Assembly: GCF_030433645.1 (NCBI RefSeq)
Contig: NZ_JAROCG010000001.1
Location: 2,108,001-2,172,000 of the forward strand
Reading direction: 5' to 3'
Length of the DNA stretch: 64,000 nucleotides
Source: Arthrobacter burdickii
GTDB taxonomy: Bacteria; Actinomycetota; Actinomycetes; Actinomycetales; Micrococcaceae
The notes beneath the pieces are model-generated. The model saw only the letters and a list, made by a program, of their open reading frames with translations. It was not told the origin of the DNA and made no database searches. Within the stretch, counting starts at the first letter, position 1; every line of letters begins with the position of its first letter. Made by a program: the position numbers and the translations under genes. Of the stretch, positions 55,726-64,000 are shown one piece after another.

Positions 55726-55892
55726 TTTGCATGTCCTGACCTCCCTCGACCGAGGGGCCGCTGTGTACAGGAGCGGCAGGCAAAGGGGAAGGCCCCGATG
55801 CAAAATGATCCGGAGCGAGAAAGGGGTTGCGTACTAAGCAGGCTGATGTTTTGTTGGGAGACGTGAGTGCCCGACGCTTGATGGAGAACAGC

Positions 55893-56837
55893 ATGCAGAG
55901 TACGGCCGCCCCCGTGGTGCCCGGCGGATCCCTTCCGGGGCACGCCGCCTACCAGAACGACGTCGAACCGAACGACGCCGGACAGGACCACCGGAACGAC
56001 CGCGACGACGTCGGGCAGGACGACAGGGACGACGTCGAACCGAACGACCGCGACGACGCCGATGACGCCGATGACACCGGCGACGAGGGAGTCGGCTGCA
56101 CGTACCCCGAGCGTCCCCTCAAGGCGGCGCTGCAGGACGACATCGCCCTGCGGCACATGGATATCGCCGAATCGGTGGCACGGTCCTTCGCGGCGTCGGG
56201 GCCGGAGGCTTCCGATATCCGACAGGTCGCGTACCTCGGACTCATCAAGGCCGTGCAGCGTTTCAATCCGGCACGGGGCGTTCCCTTCGCCTCCTTCGCC
56301 GTGCCGACGATCAACGGCGAGATCAAGCGGTACCTGCGGGATTCGTGCTGGGTCGTCCGGCCGCCGCGGGATGTCCAGGACCTGCGCACGGAGATCGCCC
56401 GGGCCGCACCCGCCATGGCCCAGAGGCTCGGCCGTGAGGCGACGGCCCGCGAACTCGGGCTGGAGCTCGGCTGGCCGGAGGAGAAGATCCTCGAGGCGCA
56501 GGCGTCCCATTCGAGCCTGCGGCCCGACTCCCTCGATGCGCCCTTCGAGGGACGCAGCTGGGCGGACACGCTGGCCACCGACTACAACGGCATGGAGCGC
56601 AGCGACGACCTGATCTCCCTGCGCAGTGCCGTCAACGAACTCGACAGCAGCGAGAAGGAACTCCTCTACCGCCGCTACTTCATGGAGCAGACCCAGCAGT
56701 GTATCGGCGATGAGCTCGGCATGTCCCAGATGCAGGTCTCGAGGACCCTCGCACGGATCCTCGTGAAGCTGCAGAAGAGGCTCCTCGGCGCTCCAGCCTC
56801 CCAGGACCAGAAGGCTGCCGGACGCAGTATCGCCTGA
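55893..56837 (+). CDS. SigB/SigF/SigG-type RNA polymerase sigma factor
   Basis: 314 residues from ATG 55893, preceded by GGAG at six bases; starts at TTG 55827 or GTG 55863 are in frame but have poor spacing. The first 70 residues are an acidic, disordered stretch of near-repeats (DDVGQDDRDDVEPNDRDDAD). Region 2 follows (ASDIRQVAYLGLIKAVQRFNPARGVPFASFA), then VPTINGEIKRYLRDSCWVVRPPR, region 3, and region 4 (LYRRYFMEQTQQCIGDELGMSQMQVSRTLARILV). This is the group-3 SigB/SigF class controlling stress genes. No anti-sigma gene is adjacent. The heptose cluster begins 176 bases downstream. Confidence 0.93.
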   Translation: MQSTAAPVVPGGSLPGHAAYQNDVEPNDAGQDHRNDRDDVGQDDRDDVEPNDRDDADDADDTGDEGVGCTYPERPLKAALQDDIALRHMDIAESVARSFAASGPEASDIRQVAYLGLIKAVQRFNPARGVPFASFAVPTINGEIKRYLRDSCWVVRPPRDVQDLRTEIARAAPAMAQRLGREATARELGLELGWPEEKILEAQASHSSLRPDSLDAPFEGRSWADTLATDYNGMERSDDLISLRSAVNELDSSEKELLYRRYFMEQTQQCIGDELGMSQMQVSRTLARILVKLQKRLLGAPASQDQKAAGRSIA

Positions 56838-57013: not shown

Positions 57014-58054
57014 CTAGGAGATGCCGTGGTCCGCTGCGGCGGCCAGCACCTGCTCGACCGTCACGGCCAGCAGGGCGGGGTCCGGCGTGGGGGAGAAGGT
57101 CTCGCCGAGGCGGAGGGACTCATCGGTCAGGACCGTGTGGGGTCCGGGCGGCGGCCCCCATGACGACACCGGTGCCGGCCCGAACAGGATGACCGACGGC
57201 CGCGCGTAGGCCGATGCGAGGTGAGCGGCGCCCGTGTCCGCGGAGATCACGAGGGATGCCCCCGCGATCAGTCGGGCGAAGCGGTCCAGCGGGAGCGTGC
57301 CCGCGGCGACCGTGTCCTCGGGCAGGCCGGCTGCGTCCGCGACGGCGAGGGCGCGCGGCCGTTCCTTCTCGCTTCCCGTGAAGACCACCTGATGACCTGA
57401 GGCGGCCAGGGTGCGGGCCACGTCGGCGAACCGCTCGACCGGCCAGAGGCGGCTGCCGTACGCCGCCCCGACATGCACGACGACGGCGTCGGGGGCAGGG
57501 CTCTCGCCGTCGGGCACCCGGAGGCGGCAGTCCAGTGGATCTGCGGGAACGCCGTGCCAGCCGACGAGCGAGGCCCAGCGTTTCCGCTCGAGCGCGTCGT
57601 TGTCCCACTCGGGTCCGTCCCAGCCCGGGGCGCTGTGTCCCATGAGGCGTTTCGCGCCGATCTCCTCGAGGCGCCCCCTGCTCTCCGGTCCGTTGCCGTG
57701 CAGGTTGACGGCCAGGTCGATCCGCCCGTGCTCGATGGGCAGGGGGTCGTCGAGCCCGTGGGTGGGCAGCAGGTCGTCGACGGCGTCCGTGAGGGCGACG
57801 ATGGGCCGGAGCCATTGCTGCGCTGCGTAGAAGATCCGGTGGTCGGGGAACGCCCGGCGCAGCCCCCGGAGGGCCGGCACGGCGACGAGGAGGTCACCGA
57901 GCTTCAGGGCGCGGAGGGCCAGGATCTCGGGACGCCCGTCGGGTGGGGGAGTCGTGCTGGGGATGGCGCGGGGAGCCGGACCGGCGGAGAGGTGCCGGTG
58001 CGGTTCCTGGGATGCCTGCTGGTCGCTCGCGGCGCTGGTGCCCTCGGAAGTCAT
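57014..58054 (-). CDS. GT9 glycosyltransferase (heptosyltransferase-like)
   Basis: 346 residues from ATG 58054; the in-frame start at 58096 is possible. The first 45 residues are polar, then the GT-B fold starts with ILALRALKLGDLLVAVPALRGLRRAFP, the GT9 (RfaF/WaaC) signature. HVGAAYGSRLWPVERFADVARTL and SADTGAAHLASAYARPSVILFGP form the C-terminal nucleotide-sugar site. GT9 enzymes transfer L,D- or D,D-heptose from ADP-heptose to LPS core in Gram-negatives; this genome has no sign of LPS. A -10-like GATAAT is four bases before the ATG. Divergent from gmhB and the heptose operon, so functionally linked. Confidence 0.87.
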   Translation of the reverse strand: MTSEGTSAASDQQASQEPHRHLSAGPAPRAIPSTTPPPDGRPEILALRALKLGDLLVAVPALRGLRRAFPDHRIFYAAQQWLRPIVALTDAVDDLLPTHGLDDPLPIEHGRIDLAVNLHGNGPESRGRLEEIGAKRLMGHSAPGWDGPEWDNDALERKRWASLVGWHGVPADPLDCRLRVPDGESPAPDAVVVHVGAAYGSRLWPVERFADVARTLAASGHQVVFTGSEKERPRALAVADAAGLPEDTVAAGTLPLDRFARLIAGASLVISADTGAAHLASAYARPSVILFGPAPVSSWGPPPGPHTVLTDESLRLGETFSPTPDPALLAVTVEQVLAAAADHGIS

Positions 58055-58286
58055 GCGAATTATCCTGCCAGAGGATCGGCGGCCGTCCGTCGTCATGTGC
58101 CGGCGCCGGCCCGTCGCGGGGTCGTCGCGGGGTCGCCGCGGGGTCGCCGCGGGGCAGGCACGGGGCCAGGAGGGGGTCGGAATCGCGGTCCGGAAGGAGC
58201 CGCGGGAGGAGAAGCAGAAGAAGGAGCAGGAGAAGAAGTTCGTCGGAAAGTGTTTAGTACTGCTTCTTCCCGGGAACTAAGCCTGT
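58055..58286. other. Divergent promoter region of the heptose cluster
   Basis: 232 bases between GT9 (minus) and gmhB (plus). It contains short direct repeats of CGCGGGGTCGC (58120-58155) and a purine-rich GAGGAGAAGCAGAAGAAGGA-type tract (58206-58238), and then GTTT (58253-58256) before GGGAAC (58272-58277). A -10-like TAAGCC (58278-58283) precedes gmhB closely. GATAAT (58059-58064, minus) serves the GT9 gene. Which sigma factor acts here is undetermined. Confidence 0.4.
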
Positions 58287-58832
58287 ATGAACACTTCGGC
58301 CGGACGATCCCAGACAGCCCCTCGGGCGGTCCTGTTCGACCGCGACGGGACCATCGTCGTCGACGTCCCGTACAACGGGGATCCGGAGCTCGTACGGCCC
58401 ATGCCGGGTGCGCGCGCGGTCCTCGACGGCCTGCGGTCGCGTGGCATCCCCGTGGGGGTCGTCACCAACCAGTCGGGCATCGCGCGGGGCTTCGTCACGC
58501 GGGAGCAGGTGGATGCCGTCAACGCCCGGGTGGAGGAACTGCTGGGCCCCTTCGACGTCTGGGAGGTCTGCCCGCACGGGGTGGCTGACGGGTGCGCGTG
58601 CCGCAAGCCCGGTCCCGGCATGGTCCTCTCCGCCAGTGCGCGCCTCGGCGTCGACCCGTCCGACGTCGCCGTCGTGGGGGACATCGGAGCGGACATGGGT
58701 GCCGCCGCGGCGGCCGGGGCCCGCGGAGTGCTGGTCCCGACCGACATCACGCTCGAGGAGGAGATCCTCTCGGCTCCCGTCGTCGCCCGCGACCTCGCCC
58801 ATGCCGTCGAGTCCCTGTGGGGGACGCAATGA
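58287..58832 (+). CDS. gmhB: D-glycero-manno-heptose 1,7-bisphosphate phosphatase (GmhB-like HAD-IIIA)
   Basis: 181 residues. HAD motif I is LFDRDGTIV, motif II VVTNQSG, the Lys/Pro of motif III CRKPGPGM and motif IV VVGDIGADM. The zinc loop CPHGVADGCACRKP (C-x-H...C-x-C) is the feature that separates GmhB from other histidinol-phosphatase-like HADs. PYNGDPELVRPMPGA also fits GmhB. It removes the C7 phosphate from heptose 1,7-bisphosphate. First gene of an operon in which every following start overlaps the preceding stop. Alternative: a different sugar bisphosphatase, but the neighbours argue for heptose. Confidence 0.9.
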   Translation: MNTSAGRSQTAPRAVLFDRDGTIVVDVPYNGDPELVRPMPGARAVLDGLRSRGIPVGVVTNQSGIARGFVTREQVDAVNARVEELLGPFDVWEVCPHGVADGCACRKPGPGMVLSASARLGVDPSDVAVVGDIGADMGAAAAAGARGVLVPTDITLEEEILSAPVVARDLAHAVESLWGTQ

Positions 58833-59932
58833 GGCGGCGCGTGCTCGTGGCCCGGCTCGACAGCGCCGGCGACGTTCTCCTCGCGGGGCCGGCCGTCCGT
58901 GCGATCGCCGCAGGGGACCACGGGGACTCCCCGAACGACGTCGTCATGCTGTGCGGGCCGCAGGGGGCCGCCGCCGCGCGGCTCCTGCCCGGCGTCGTCG
59001 ACGTTCTCACCTGGTCCGCGCCCTGGATCGTCGATCCCCCGCCCGAGCCCACAGCGGACCTCATGGGCGAACTGCACGACGCGGTGCTGGCGCTGGACGT
59101 GGACGAGGCCGTGATCCTCACGTCGTTCCACCAGTCACCCCTGCCGCTCGCGCTGCTGCTCCGGCTGGCCGGCGTCCGGCGGATCGCCGGCGCATCCGTC
59201 GACTACCCGGGGTCGCTCCTCGACGTGCGGCTCAAGCCCGGTGAGGATTTCCCGGAGGACCAGCCGGAGGCCGAGCGCGCGCTGGGCATCGCGGAAGCCG
59301 CGGGTTACGCCCTGCCGCCCGGCGACGACGGCCGGCTCCAGGTCACCAACCTCACCGACGTGTCGGGCCTCGTGGGACGGGGGCCCTACGTCGTCGTGCA
59401 TCCCGGGGCGTCCGTGCCCGCACGCGCCTGGCCGCCGCTGCACCACGCGGCCGCCGTCGAGCTCCTGACCGCGGCCGGGTTCCGCGTCGTCGTCACCGGC
59501 GGACCGAACGAGACCGATCTGACCTCCACCGTCGCCGGGCCCGAGGCCCTGGACCTCGGCGGACGGACCGACCTCGCCGCGCTGGGCTCCGTCCTCGCCG
59601 GAGCGACCGTCGTCGTCACCGGGAACACCGGTCCCGCCCATCTGGCGGCCGCCGTCGGCACACCCGTCGTCTGCCTCTTCTCGCCCGTCGTGCCGGCGAT
59701 CCGCTGGGCACCCTACCGCGTGCCCGTCGAGCTACTGGGGGACCAGCAGGCCGCGTGTGCGCTCAGCCGGGCCCGCATCTGCCCCGTCCAGGGCCACCCG
59801 TGCCTGTCCAACGTCTCCCCGGAGGACGTCGTCGACGCCGTCCTCCGACTCAGCTCCGGAATATCGTCACTCGGCTCACGCCGCAGTATCGGCCGCACAG
59901 AAGGCCGCAGAACAACGAGGGGAAACCGATGA
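58829..59932 (+). CDS. GT9 glycosyltransferase (heptosyltransferase-like)
   Basis: 367 residues from ATG 58829, overlapping gmhB. The N-terminus RVLVARLDSAGDVLLAGPAVRAIAAG is the GT9 start. PYVVVHPGASVPARAWPP (sugar-nucleotide phosphate contacts) and VVVTGNTGPAHLAAAVGTPVVCLFSPVVPAIRW are the C-domain motifs, matching the heptosyltransferase GxT/SGxxH pattern. RARICPVQGHPCLSNV has two Cys near the end. Probably adds a heptose to an unknown envelope acceptor. Cytoplasmic or membrane-peripheral. The frame upstream to 58592 lies within gmhB and is not used. The next start overlaps by four bases. Confidence 0.88.
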   Translation: MRRRVLVARLDSAGDVLLAGPAVRAIAAGDHGDSPNDVVMLCGPQGAAAARLLPGVVDVLTWSAPWIVDPPPEPTADLMGELHDAVLALDVDEAVILTSFHQSPLPLALLLRLAGVRRIAGASVDYPGSLLDVRLKPGEDFPEDQPEAERALGIAEAAGYALPPGDDGRLQVTNLTDVSGLVGRGPYVVVHPGASVPARAWPPLHHAAAVELLTAAGFRVVVTGGPNETDLTSTVAGPEALDLGGRTDLAALGSVLAGATVVVTGNTGPAHLAAAVGTPVVCLFSPVVPAIRWAPYRVPVELLGDQQAACALSRARICPVQGHPCLSNVSPEDVVDAVLRLSSGISSLGSRRSIGRTEGRRTTRGNR

Positions 59933-60930
59933 GGATCCTGTTATGGCACGTCCACGGAGGGTGGACCGACGCCTTCGTGAGGGGTGCACACACCTATGTG
60001 CTGCCGACCACCCCCGACGGCGGCGCGTGGGGCCTCGGCCGTGCCGGCCGCGACTGGCCGGCGTCCGTCGTCGAGGTGGCGCCCTCCGACCTCCGGGATG
60101 CCGACATCGACGTCGTCGTCCTGCAGCGGGTCGAGGAGATCGCCGAGTGCGAGCGGCTCCTCGGGCGCACGCCGGGGCGGGACCTCCCGGCCGTCTTCCT
60201 CGAGCACAACACCCCGCGTCGCGACATCGTCGGCACCGTGCACCCGCTCGCCGGGCAGACCGACATCCCCGTCATCCACGTCACCCACTTCAACGGGCTC
60301 TTCTGGGACAACGGCTCCGCGAGGACCCGGGTCATCGAGCACGGCATCGTCGACCCGGGGTACCTCTACACCGGTGAGCTCGAGCAGCTCGCCGTCGTCA
60401 TCAACGAGCCCGTACGGCGCGGACGCATCACCGGGACGGACCTCCTTCCGCGCTTCGCGGGCGTCGCCCCGCTGGAGGTCTTCGGCATGGGCACGGACAA
60501 GCTCGCCGACACCCTCGACCTCGGCCCCGGGGAGCTGCGCATCGGCGGGGACCTCTCCATGGCCGCACTGCACGCCCGGCTCGGACGCTCGCGGGCCTAT
60601 GTCCACCCACTGCGCTGGACCTCCCTCGGACTCTCCCTCCTGGAAGCCATGCACGTCGGGCTTCCCGTGCTGGCGCTCGCGACGACGGAGGCGGCACGCG
60701 CGGTGCCCCCCGAGGCCGGAGCCGTCTCGACCAGCATCGACGACCTCGTGCGGATGGCAGCACGCCTGATCGACGACCCGGACGAAGCCCGGACACGGGG
60801 ACTGGCTGCCCGGGAGGCGGCACTCGCACGGTACGGGCTCGCCCGGTTCCTCGCCGACTGGGACGACGTCCTGGCGCAGGAGCCGACGCGGCACCCGGTC
60901 CTGGCGGTAACAGAAAGGAAAGCGCAGTGA
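59929..60930 (+). CDS. Glycosyltransferase, GT-B fold
   Basis: 333 residues from ATG 59929 (GAGGGGAAACC upstream), overlapping the GT9 gene. MRILLWHVHGGWTDAFVRGAHTYVLP begins the fold, followed by VFLEHNTPR and HVTHFNGLFW. The C-terminal half has RAYVHPLRWTSLGLSLLEAMHVGLPVLALATTEA, the GT4-type E-x7-E-like nucleotide-sugar region. It is shorter than the usual GT4 enzyme. Its donor and acceptor are not predictable; the operon suggests a heptose-containing glycan. Ends in an overlap with the next glycosyltransferase. Confidence 0.85.
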   Translation: MRILLWHVHGGWTDAFVRGAHTYVLPTTPDGGAWGLGRAGRDWPASVVEVAPSDLRDADIDVVVLQRVEEIAECERLLGRTPGRDLPAVFLEHNTPRRDIVGTVHPLAGQTDIPVIHVTHFNGLFWDNGSARTRVIEHGIVDPGYLYTGELEQLAVVINEPVRRGRITGTDLLPRFAGVAPLEVFGMGTDKLADTLDLGPGELRIGGDLSMAALHARLGRSRAYVHPLRWTSLGLSLLEAMHVGLPVLALATTEAARAVPPEAGAVSTSIDDLVRMAARLIDDPDEARTRGLAAREAALARYGLARFLADWDDVLAQEPTRHPVLAVTERKAQ

Positions 60931-62219
60931 GGATATCGATGGTGTCTGAGCATGCAAGTCCACTTGCGGCGTTGGGGGGCGTGGACGCCGGCGGGCAGAA
61001 CGTCCATGTGGCCGAACTGTCCCTCGCACTGGCCCGCCGGGGACACGAGGTCACGGTGTACACGCGCCGGGACGACCCCGCCCTCCCTGACCGCGTCCGG
61101 ACCGACCCGAGGCTGGAGGTCGTGCACATCACCGCGGGACCCGTGCGCAGCGTCCCAAAGGACATGCTGCTGCCCTACATGGGCGAGCTCGCCGCCGGCA
61201 TCGTGGAGGACTGGGGCACCGAGCCGCCGGACATCGTGCACGGGCACTTCTGGATGTCGGGACTCGCAGCGCTCGATGCCGCCGGACAGTCACGGGCCGC
61301 CGGGCGGCCGGTGCAGGTCATCCAGACCTTCCACGCTCTCGGAACGGTCAAGCGCCGTCACCAGGGCGGCGAGGACACCAGCCCGTCCGAGCGCCTCATG
61401 CTCGAGACCATGGTGGGCCGGAGTGCCGACCGCATCGTCGCGACCTGCTCGGACGAGGTCTTCGAACTCAAGGCCATGGGCGTCCCGGGCAGCCGGGTGT
61501 CGATCGCCCCCTGCGGCGTGGACCTCGAACTGTTCACCCCGCGCGGCCCGGTGGAGGAGCGCGGACGCGCCCACCGGATCGTGACCGTGGGCCGCCTCGT
61601 GCCCCGCAAGGGCATGGACCTCGCCATCCGTGCCCTGCGCGAGCTCGCCGACAGAGGGTGCGACGACGTCGAACTCGTCATCGTGGGCGGCGCGGGCAAC
61701 TCCACCGGGCTGGAGGACGATCCCGAGGCGCAACGGCTCCGCGCACTGGCGGTCGACCTCGGCGTCGGTGACAGGGTCATCCTCCGCGGCCAGGTGTCGC
61801 GTGCCGAGATGCCGGCGGTCCTTCGGAGCGCCGACGCCGTCGTGTGCGCACCCTGGTACGAGCCGTTCGGCATCGTCCCCCTCGAGGCGATGGCCTGCGG
61901 GGTCCCCGTGATCGCCGCGGCCGTCGGCGGGCTCGTGGACACGGTGGTGGACGGCAAGACCGGACTCCACGTCCCCCCACAGGACCCGGCGGCCATCGCG
62001 GCGGCCATCGCCGATATCGTCGCCGATCCCGAGTGGGGGCGCGAACTCGGCGACAACGGCTACCGCCGCGTCAAGGCCCGCTACTCCTGGAGCCGCATCG
62101 CGGCCGACACCGAGAAGGCCTACCAGACGGCACTGGGCGCGGTAGCGCCCGCACAACCGGCAACAGCGCGGCGCAGTGCCGCGCGTCGACTCGAAAGCAC
62201 GGGAGGCAGGGCACTGTGA
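60927..62219 (+). CDS. GT4 glycosyltransferase
   Basis: 430 residues from GTG 60927 (AAAGGAA upstream). The N-terminal [34 protein letters not shown] is the GT4 acceptor-domain signature shared with MshA, sucrose-phosphate synthase and related enzymes. [49 protein letters not shown] (EPFGxxPLE, E-x7-E) and [14 protein letters not shown] are the retaining-GT4 donor motifs. Probably adds a sugar to the same product as the GT9 proteins. Part of the coupled operon; overlaps gmhA (GTGA). Confidence 0.92.
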
Positions 62220-62929
62220 CCACGCATTTCTCCGACGTATTCCCGGATACGCGCACCGCGGCACCGACCGCCCCGACAATCGCACCGACAGCTACGGCCC
62301 TCGATCCGGGCAGCCCGGACGTCAGGGCCGACCAGGTGCGGGCCGACTCGCACCGGATCGTCCTGGAACACCTGCACGCTGTCGCACCGGCGGTGGAGTC
62401 CCTCCTCGGCAGCACCGCCACCCTGGCGGCCTGGGGCGTGGAGATGGCGGACCGCCTCCTGGCCGGCCAGCGCCTCCTCGCAGCGGGCAACGGTGGCTCG
62501 GCCGCCGAGGCGCAGCACCTGACCGCCGAGCTCGTGGGCAGGTTCGACGGAGAACGCGAGCCGTTCTCCGCGATCTCGCTCCACGCGGAGAGCTCCGCGG
62601 TGACGGCGATCGCCAACGACTACGGCTTCGACCGGATGTTCGCCCGCCAGGTGAGCGCCCACGGCCGTCCGGGGGACATCCTGATGCTCCTGAGCACGAG
62701 CGGCAAGAGCCCCAACCTGCTCCATGCGGTGGAGGCCGCGCGTGCGGCCGGTATCACCACCTGGGCGCTCACCGGTGTGGGCCCCAATCCGCTGACCGAG
62801 TGCGTGGACGACTACGTGGCGGTCGACGCGACGTCCGCCAATGCCCAGGAGGGCCATCTGATAGCCCTCCATGCCATCTGCCGTGCCTTCGACGCAGAGG
62901 TGCGCCGCCGGCGGGAGGAGCAGCGATGA
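62216..62929 (+). CDS. gmhA: Phosphoheptose isomerase (GmhA-like, SIS domain)
   Basis: 237 residues from GTG 62216 (GGGAGGC upstream), overlapping the GT4 gene. A 40-residue Thr/Pro/Ala-rich N-terminus precedes the SIS domain. [25 protein letters not shown] is the GmhA phosphosugar motif, then [45 protein letters not shown], and [18 protein letters not shown] with the catalytic Glu/His. It converts sedoheptulose 7-phosphate to D-glycero-D-manno-heptose 7-phosphate, the first step of ADP-heptose synthesis. hldE overlaps the stop by four bases. Confidence 0.93.
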
Positions 62930-64000
62930 GGATCGTGGTGGTCGGAGACGTACTGCTCGACACGGACCTGTCCGGTGATGCCGGGCGGCTCTCGCCCGAC
63001 GCCCCCGTGCCCGTGGTCGACGTCGATGCGATCCAGCGGCGGGCGGGGGGAGCAGGCCTCGTGGCCCGCATGCTGCAGGCCGACGGGCACGACGCCGTCC
63101 TGGTCACCGTCCTCGGTGAGGACGACGCCGCCGGGCTGCTGCGCACCGAACTCGACGGGATCACCGTCGTCGCCGGCCCCTCGGGAGCACCCACGCCCGT
63201 GAAGACCCGCGTGCGCGCCTCGGGGCAGCCCGTGGTGCGCTTCGACGAGGGGTGCGCGACGCCGCCCGTCCCGGGCTGCACCGGGACCATGCTCGCGGCC
63301 CTCGAGGGAGCCGACGCGATCATCGCGGCCGACTACGGCCGTGGTCTGCTTGCGAATGACGACCTGCGCGCCCGCCTCGAGGCGCTCTCCGCCTCGATCC
63401 CTGTGGTCTGGGACCCCCATCCCGCCGGAGCGCAGCCCGTCCCGGGTGTCGCTGCCGTGACCCCGAACATCGGCGAGGCCCTCCGTTTCGCCGACGTCCA
63501 GGGGTCGGGGACGCAGGCGGCCGCCGCGGCTGCGGAGGTGCTGATCGCCGCCTGGCGGAGCAAGGCCGTCCTCGTCACGATGGGGGAGCACGGAGCGCTC
63601 GTCGCCGCAGCCGGCCTCCTGCCCCAGGTGGTGCCGGCGCCCCGCGTGAGCGCCTCGGACCCCTGCGGGGCCGGTGACCGCTTCGCCTCCGCGCTCGCCG
63701 TCGGGCTGGCGCAGGGAGCCCCGATCGACGCCGCCGCGCAGCAGGCGACGGAAGCCGCCGCGCACTTCCTGGCGTCCGGAGGCGTGGGCGCCATGGGCAG
63801 AAGCCGCGAGGAGACGCCCGAGCAGTTGCCCGTCGACGGCCTCGACGCCCTCAACGTCGTCCGCCGGACACGGGAATCAGGCGGGACGGTGGTGGCGACC
63901 GGCGGGTGCTTCGACCTCCTGCACGCGGGCCACGCCCGCACGCTCGCTGCCGCCCGGCGCCTCGGCGACTGCCTCATCGTGTGCCTCAACTCCGACGAGT
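62926..64000 (+). CDS. hldE: Bifunctional heptose 7-phosphate kinase/heptose 1-phosphate adenylyltransferase, cut by the window end
   Basis: 358 codons visible from ATG 62926 (GGAGGAGCAGC upstream); no stop before the edge. The N-terminal part is a PfkB/ribokinase-type kinase: [35 protein letters not shown], and the catalytic [17 protein letters not shown]. From about residue 320 a nucleotidyltransferase domain starts: [26 protein letters not shown], with the HxGH motif. This order is that of HldE/RfaE, which phosphorylates heptose 7-phosphate and, after GmhB, adenylylates heptose 1-phosphate. The kinase type (not GHMP) indicates the ADP-heptose rather than GDP-heptose route. The epimerase HldD, if present, would be downstream. 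Confidence 0.93.

Follow-up and report, generated by a model that had tools for sequence, protein, structure and literature searches.

A conserved putative heptose gene locus of Arthrobacter burdickii resembles the cwg operon of Streptomyces and carries a predicted stress-type promoter

Why should an actinobacterium whose genome gives no sign of lipopolysaccharide (LPS) synthesis carry predicted genes for a nucleotide-activated heptose next to glycosyltransferases of the LPS heptosyltransferase family (GT9)? This question is raised by a locus at the end of a 64,000-nucleotide stretch of Arthrobacter burdickii DNA (the window; bases 2108001-2172000 of contig 1), which belongs to a genome of 3.95 Mb with a completeness of 100%. 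The locus probably directs the synthesis of an envelope glycan with D-glycero-D-manno-heptose (D,D-heptose) under stress control, as a Micrococcaceae variant of the cwg operon of Streptomyces coelicolor (SCO6179-SCO6190; PMC5839063). Gene families were assigned with Pfam and NCBIfam hidden Markov models (HMMs) and by the nearest solved PDB chains (for hldE2 by HMMs). In the map below, coordinates past 64000 continue the window numbering (L004 position plus 55000), and identities refer to a Streptomyces operon of the cwg type that is described thereafter.

55827..56837, plus strand: sigma factor gene of the SigB/SigF/SigG type (NCBIfam TIGR02980 199.6 bits, cut-off 234)
57014..58096, minus strand: GT9b, GT-B glycosyltransferase of the heptosyltransferase family, cwgJ counterpart (PF01075 76 bits; 46-47% to Streptomyces gene 10)
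58252..58277, plus strand: SigB/SigF-like promoter GTTTAG-N14-GGGAAC, 9 bases upstream of the gmhB ATG
58287..58832, plus strand: gmhB, putative HAD-IIIA heptose bisphosphate phosphatase, cwgD counterpart (HMM; 4pnh; 57% to the Streptomyces gene)
58829..59932, plus strand: GT9a, heptosyltransferase family, cwgE counterpart (PF01075 79 bits; profile matches to the heptosyltransferases 1psw and 2h1f; 62%)
59929..60930, plus strand: GT-B/GT4-like glycosyltransferase, cwgF counterpart (PF00534 35 bits; 56% to the Streptomyces gene)
60927..62219, plus strand: GT4 of the MshA/sucrose-phosphate-synthase group, cwgG counterpart (NCBIfam MshA 246.8 bits; 52% to the Streptomyces gene)
62216..62929, plus strand: gmhA, putative sedoheptulose-7-phosphate isomerase (SIS), cwgH counterpart (GTG start; TIGR00441; 63%)
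62926..64293 (L004 7926-9293; the window ends at 64000), plus strand: hldE1, putative kinase and nucleotidyltransferase, cwgI counterpart (TIGR02199; 46% over the full length)
64355-65104, past the window: short-chain dehydrogenase/reductase (SDR)
65070-66353, minus strand, past the window: GT9c, third GT9
about 66487 to 67896, past the window: aldehyde dehydrogenase (ALDH)
67896-69446, past the window: hldE2, second full HldE gene
69443-70306, past the window: GT2

The five junctions from gmhB through GT9a, GT-B, GT4 and gmhA to hldE1 share four bases each (ATGA or GTGA), and GT9b is divergent from this operon. Both features had been described in the first-pass annotation of the window, and the reading frames bear them out. 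The three GT9 genes account for all PF01075 matches in the genome (three in total), and gmhA has a single match there.

In the cwg operon, cwgB, C, E, G and J are labelled as transferases, cwgD as a dehydratase, cwgH as a phosphoheptose isomerase and cwgI as a bifunctional synthase/transferase (PMC5839063); cwgE is also described as a putative heptosyl transferase (PMC5882110) and CwgA as a nucleotide-sugar dehydratase (PMC10148868). The operon is vancomycin-induced, partly sigma-E dependent and grouped with envelope stress genes, and in S. coelicolor, too, the cell wall glycan is a predicted product. A twelve-gene operon of this type is located on plasmid p65_CHABEC of Streptomyces sp. CA-256286 (L117, 7797-20227) in the order epimerase, carbamoyltransferase, GT, HAD, GT9, GT, GT, SIS, rfaE2, GT9, GT, GT (GT, glycosyltransferase), and it fits the published labels at the nine positions compared (A-E, G-J). 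We infer that cwgD corresponds to the HAD gene, the label dehydratase probably reflecting likeness to HisB. The plasmid is linear and typed as mobilizable, so that an operon of this kind may travel.

The window genes match positions 4-10 of the plasmid operon with identities of 57% (gmhB), 62% (GT9a), 56% (GT-B), 52% (GT4), 63% (gmhA), 46% over the full length (hldE1) and 46-47% (GT9b). The match of GT9c is a distant one to a GT9 (32%) and that of GT2 is weak; for SDR, ALDH and the sigma gene there was no match in the twelve-gene operon. The core order HAD-GT9-GT-GT-SIS-HldE plus a second GT9 is thus present in the window locus, the second GT9 being divergent in Micrococcaceae. Two further loci from large genomes (L107 and L109) hold a cwg-type operon from the epimerase to the second GT9, and their operon heads match the published cwg promoter at 27/29 and 22/29 positions, respectively; in the scanned part of the loci, 8 of 1,218,208 positions reached at least 20/29. 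Judged by gene order and identity, the locus probably represents the form that this Streptomyces operon type takes in Micrococcaceae. The first-pass annotation had called the acceptor and the glycosyltransferase roles undescribed; as a kind, the cluster is not. It is also widespread in Actinomycetota, and published work had already traced heptose-nucleotide enzymes through bacteria and into other kingdoms (PMC11573728, PMC11461863).

Which sugar would the locus provide? The nearest solved chains are a phosphoheptose isomerase for GmhA (5i01), a heptose bisphosphate phosphatase for GmhB (4pnh, with the CxHx5CxC loop aligned and kept), and a putative cytidylyltransferase (5x9q) together with a heptose-7-phosphate kinase (4e84) for HldE1. 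The His/Glu pair and the C-terminal QE-x-H stretch of 5i01 are conserved in GmhA, both presumably with a role in the enzyme. The HldE adenylyltransferase domain (TIGR02199, cut-off 181.5 bits; hldE1 182.9, hldE2 182.8) is the only pathway-specific NCBIfam model passed by the locus. The HldE kinase domain (TIGR02198; hldE1 153.9 and hldE2 236 bits, cut-off 345), GmhA (TIGR00441; 146-147 bits, cut-off 209) and GmhB (72 bits, pathway-specific cut-off 150; general HAD-IIIA models passed) score lower, and their names therefore rest on homology and gene company. With GmhA, HldE and GmhB all present by homology, a route to nucleoside diphosphate (NDP)-D,D-heptose is predicted. The ADP-heptose pathway proposed in the first-pass annotation is supported as a predicted set of enzymes for NDP-D,D-heptose; the restriction to ADP is less secure, as the nucleotide may be another one as well.

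Heptose nucleotidyltransferases of the STTR5 type, with an Arg at position 5 of the motif (F/L)xxGxSTT, are reported to form CDP- and UDP-heptose as well (PMC11573728, PMC11461863); this Arg is said not to be strictly required (PMC11461863). In the window's genome, HldE1 reads YIPARSTT, with the Arg kept and the first residue and the Gly deviating from (F/L)xxGRSTT, and HldE2 reads YVPEHSTA. Across 75 loci, STTR position 5 of HldE1 is Arg in 63, Tyr in 2 and His in 1 (motif not found in 9); for HldE2 in 68 loci it is His in 31, Arg in 25, Gln in 6 and Leu in 3 (none in 3). Since HldE2 often has Arg in relatives, the contrast between the two enzymes is true of the window's genome and not of every relative. 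Judging from the motif, the nucleotide specificity may not be for ADP alone, and HldE1 may form CDP- and UDP-heptose besides ADP-heptose.

The absence of LPS, assumed in the first-pass annotation, is in agreement with the search for LpxC, the one lpx gene product searched for: it had 0 matches in the genome, and the control detected E. coli and three others. HldD, for which the first-pass annotation had advised a look past position 64000, was not found over the cut-off genome-wide (TIGR02197; best 89.5 vs 274.6 bits), with 10 matches below the cut-off in the genome and 0 within the locus; the predicted donor is therefore D,D-heptose. Two candidates for this function were rejected. The SDR of the locus has classical SDR models as its best matches, with HldD not among the 25 models listed, and the epimerase of the cwg-type operon reaches 55.7-62.6 bits vs 274.6. 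The genome is thus predicted to combine dedicated GT9 enzymes and a route to NDP-D,D-heptose with no sign of LPS synthesis.

The GT9 proteins miss all LPS heptosyltransferase cut-offs (48-83 bits vs 134.6-185.3 for TIGR02193, TIGR02195 and TIGR02201). They were aligned with E. coli WaaC, WaaF, WaaQ and WaaU, and the residue table and tree comprise 15 GT9a, 14 GT9b and 11 GT9c sequences from 15/21 own-family loci; one GT9c (L018), whose called frame held a stop, was excluded. Five WaaC positions with known functional roles were compared. D13 and H266 are kept in 40/40 sequences, the K192 position is Arg in 40/40, the E222 position is Glu or Asp in 40/40, and D261 is kept in GT9b (14/14) and GT9c. 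In the tree, which the first-pass annotation had proposed, GT9a, GT9b and GT9c each fall into a single clade (bootstrap 100%), and the four E. coli Waa proteins stand outside these clades on long branches, their placement being unsure.

It had also been proposed to compare the GT9 enzymes with autotransporter heptosyltransferases (TIGR04414), and GT9a matches that model faintly (22.5 bits, cut-off 200), the other GT9s not at all. Autotransporter heptosyltransferases use a D,D-heptose donor, and the lack of an HldD over the cut-off would fit a similar heptosylation of proteins in the cytoplasm with ADP-D,D-heptose. We regard this as very improbable, as the score lies far below the cut-off, no candidate protein substrate was seen in the locus, and several different glycosyltransferases point to an oligosaccharide.

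The SIS, HAD and PfkB/nucleotidyltransferase proteins might have some other sugar than heptose as their substrate, the NDP form of which the GT9s would then use; the scores of GmhA, GmhB and the kinase below their cut-offs, the Asn of GT9a at WaaC D261 and the frequent divergence of HldE2 from HldE1 at STTR position 5 would all suit this. It is nevertheless improbable, because the nearest solved relatives are heptose-pathway enzymes plus a putative cytidylyltransferase, the Zn-loop and active-site motifs are kept, and three unrelated folds of one pathway co-occur with GT9.

If the locus has a common function, how widely is it kept? The named scan matched at least 592 stretches, of which 577 were confirmed and 80 named loci kept. 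All six core genes were found in 72/80 and the order gmhB-GT9a-GT-B-GT4-gmhA-hldE1 in 68/80, namely in 45/48 loci of Micrococcaceae, the family for which a survey had been advised, 18/19 of Microbacteriaceae, 4/10 of Pseudonocardiaceae and 1/1 of Brevibacteriaceae, with 0/1 in Streptosporangiaceae and 0/1 in a 3.5 kb contig labelled Streptomyces. The gene order is shuffled in several Pseudonocardiaceae loci. All twelve genes of the window's locus were found in 15/80. Single-linkage families (37/101 loci) lumped the three GT9s together, and likewise the two HldEs, and gave too low a count for gmhA and gmhB, so tblastn maps were used instead; in these maps, some Pseudarthrobacter-type loci gave no GT9b and GT9c, and the Paenarthrobacter loci no ALDH. 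The closest named GT9a among the matches listed is that of Arthrobacter agilis UMCV2 (94%).

Within the genus, GT9a was detected in 31/38 genomes, the own genome included, and within the family in 56/197 genomes at E 1e-30, representing 14/32 genera. Among 396 sampled Actinomycetota genomes, HldE passed the cut-off in 47, and GT9a was matched in 40, some of them by weaker matches (E 1e-57 to 1e-78) that may be other GT9s; 36 genomes are in both sets, the sample draw appearing to be the same, so that GT9a and HldE mostly occur together. The seven genus genomes with no GT9a match are G014, G017, G020, G023, G026, G028 and G036. As G020 has a completeness of 68% and the other six of at least 94%, the locus seems to be absent from part of the genus. 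In the 21 kb stretch examined of A. agilis UMCV2 (L026, 1-21101), the heptose locus stops after GT-B and a sigma gene is present in reverse orientation, so that this locus seems broken or rearranged. A 1.0 Mb Arthrobacter plasmid (StoSoilB13) has a GT9a match of 71%, and in the window's genome an IS481-type transposase gene (L005 1046-2044, minus strand) is located about 5.7 kb beyond the end of GT2.

When would the genes be expressed? The motif GTTT-N13-17-GGG(A/T/G)A(T/C), which resembles the SigB/SigF promoter consensus, occurs upstream of gmhB in 49/79 loci (0.55 expected from shuffles), and upstream of six other cluster genes in 0-3 of 49-80. Taken in the single genome it is weak: there is one match in the window vs 0.26 expected, 22/100 shuffles have one, and the exact motif occurs once in the genome, a backwards control pattern once per strand. 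The weight therefore lies on its place and conservation upstream of gmhB. From its position, the gmhB transcript would be nearly leaderless. The adjacent sigma gene (55827-56837) is the best SigB/F/G-type match genome-wide (200.8 bits, cut-off 234; next best 130). In the 78 loci scored (3/81 were dropped), a sigma gene lies upstream of gmhB in 53, and the motif is present in 46/53 loci with and in 3/25 without the sigma gene. In Microbacteriaceae, 11 Curtobacterium loci have neither, and of the other 8, five have both and three the gene alone. It is likely that the neighbouring sigma factor controls the gmhB operon through this promoter.

No sigma-E-like motif was found between GT9b and gmhB in the window's locus (one loose pattern), and such matches are scattered over 13 other loci. 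An inverted-repeat operator around the -35 region was considered and is not claimed, being seen in some Pseudonocardiaceae and not consistent; upstream of gmhB in three of these (L082, L090, L092), AGTAGTAGT...ACTACTTCTC-like inverted repeats surround GTTTAC, perhaps as a regulator site. In S. coelicolor, cwgA rises with salt (PMC13011467), and in a salt-tolerant Frankia, salt raises the expression of a gene annotated as ADP-heptose:LPS heptosyltransferase (PMC5563000). Both responses would be in line with a stress glycan.

What the heptose is attached to can be approached through the GT4. Among NCBIfam models it scores highest with MshA (246.8 bits, cut-off 462.5), and its best PDB chains are 6kih (231 bits) and 3c48 (183 bits), the sucrose-phosphate synthase Tll1590 and MshA, respectively. 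It aligns with the Lys and Arg of MshA that presumably bind the acceptor phosphate. In L020, L023, L024 and L025 (4/20 own-family loci with gmhA called) and in L097 (1/72 in the other locus set), GT4 and gmhA are joined in a single open frame, which looks like a naturally occurring fusion between a glycosyltransferase and a heptose isomerase. The GT4 residues and these fusions are hints of a phosphorylated acceptor. Genes for export or ligation, such as the ligases and flippases for which the first-pass annotation had advised a look past 64000, were not seen in 18 scanned open reading frames (3 of them shared families), a search limited to these frames and not genome-wide; the one exception is a cation efflux gene that follows GT2 in the window's genome. 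The placement in the envelope is therefore made by analogy with cwg.

The main rival to an envelope glycan is a soluble heptose oligosaccharide or glycoside, either a stress solute or a specialised metabolite, for which the GT4 would act on a free sugar or polyol phosphate and the GT9s would add heptose. Enzymes of the MshA/sucrose-phosphate-synthase group, to which the GT4 belongs, use phosphorylated soluble acceptors, and the single frame of GT4 and gmhA in some relatives, the stress-type promoter and the lack of an export or ligation gene among the shared families would agree with such a product. Septacidin, moreover, is a Streptomyces case of heptose use (PMC11461863). We still consider a soluble product unlikely, given that cwg is grouped with envelope stress genes, that related heptosyltransferases use a lipid acceptor in LPS, and that a specialised metabolite would be unusual at such breadth of conservation.

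Several observations weigh against a stress-controlled envelope glycan of the cwg type. Among the gene families common to at least 3 of 37 loci, neither a flippase nor a polymerase, ligase or transporter came to light; one of these families (F18) has no Pfam match, and the screen would miss short or fast-changing genes. In the papers listed from the open literature, subscription papers not being covered, heptose in Arthrobacter and in a Streptomyces wall is unreported, as are the cwg product and cwg-like loci outside Streptomyces. GmhA, GmhB and the HldE kinase stay under the NCBIfam equivalog cut-offs, and the WaaC D261 position is Asn in 15/15 GT9a. Promoter and sigma gene do not always go together, with seven sigma-gene loci lacking the strict motif and three motif loci lacking the sigma gene; the loci are also related, so that these counts are not independent and no p value is claimed. 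The link to cwg was drawn through the published labels and the plasmid copy, not through the S. coelicolor cwg DNA, and a cwg-like promoter is present in 2/9 operon heads, the other seven matching at 14-17/29 positions (17 in the plasmid copy). Finally, a carbamoyltransferase of the cwgB type had no match in the window's genome, and a cwgA counterpart had none among the locus genes, with many PF01370 matches elsewhere in the genome.

For an envelope glycan, the following course would be expected. GmhA would convert sedoheptulose-7-phosphate to heptose-7-phosphate, the HldE kinase domain would form heptose 1,7-bisphosphate, GmhB would remove the 7-phosphate, and the HldE nucleotidyltransferase domain would yield NDP-D,D-heptose (ADP-, and possibly CDP- or UDP-heptose in the case of HldE1). 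With HldD not found, the D,D epimer would be used directly. Chain synthesis might begin with GT4 and GT-B, acting on an acceptor that is phosphorylated or lies in the membrane. Two or three of the GT9s would add the heptose at the cytoplasmic face, and the glycan may be extended or modified by GT2, SDR and ALDH. Transcription would start from the SigB/F-like promoter through the product of the neighbouring sigma gene.

Within the reach of the literature searches, the following are new: a connection with cwg beyond Streptomyces, the SigB/SigF-like gmhB promoter going with an adjacent sigma gene, and the two HldE types, of which HldE1 mostly has Arg. A vancomycin-induced Streptomyces operon is thereby tied to a specific predicted sugar, D,D-heptose. 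Its core recurs in several families of actinobacteria, and a Burkholderiales plasmid carries a related cluster. Should heptose be made, bacteria free of LPS would carry a ligand of ALPK1, and perhaps also a sugar of the wall or membrane that could have escaped routine sugar analysis; the predicted SigB/F control would offer a simple way to induce and find the glycan. A wider view is offered tentatively and with considerable doubt: a dedicated SigB/F-type sigma factor might switch on an old heptosylation system that is independent of LPS and not restricted to one phylum, in which a D,D-heptose oligosaccharide is built on a phosphorylated acceptor set up by the MshA/sucrose-phosphate-synthase-like GT4, and two nucleotidyltransferases differing in their preference for nucleoside triphosphates supply ADP-, CDP- and UDP-heptose as ALPK1 ligands in cells devoid of LPS.

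Among known systems, the Gram-negative ADP-heptose pathway with WaaC, WaaF and WaaQ shares the families of GmhA, HldE, GmhB and GT9 as well as WaaC D13 and H266 with the locus; it differs in that the window's genome has no HldD over the cut-off and no LpxC, and its GT9s lie under the LPS cut-offs. The route to GDP-alpha-heptose through GmhA, HddA, GmhB and HddC in mycobacteria and S-layer bacteria (PMC7705670) has the GmhA and GmhB steps in common, whereas the window locus has HldE (beta, NDP-heptose) in place of HddA and HddC. A cluster on plasmid p2 of Caballeronia zhejiangensis (L118, 8275-18893) gives best matches to nine cwg-type genes (cwgA, B, C, D, E, F, G, J and L); unlike the window locus it has a Gram-negative host, and neither gmhA nor hldE is seen in the 25 kb examined; a PIG-L deacetylase gene is found there near those of a GT4-like glycosyltransferase and a UDP-glucuronate decarboxylase. 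Compared with cwg of S. coelicolor, the window locus has no epimerase and carbamoyltransferase, and its further genes are those for a third GT9 and a second HldE, for an SDR and an ALDH, and for a GT2 with weak likeness to cwgC/K/L; its GT9b is divergent, and its promoter looks SigB/F-type, that of cwg being of the sigma-E type. The two have in common the order gmhB-GT9-GT-GT-SIS-HldE-GT9 (cwgD to cwgJ), with 46-63% identity in the plasmid copy, and a stress-linked transcription, which for the window locus is predicted.

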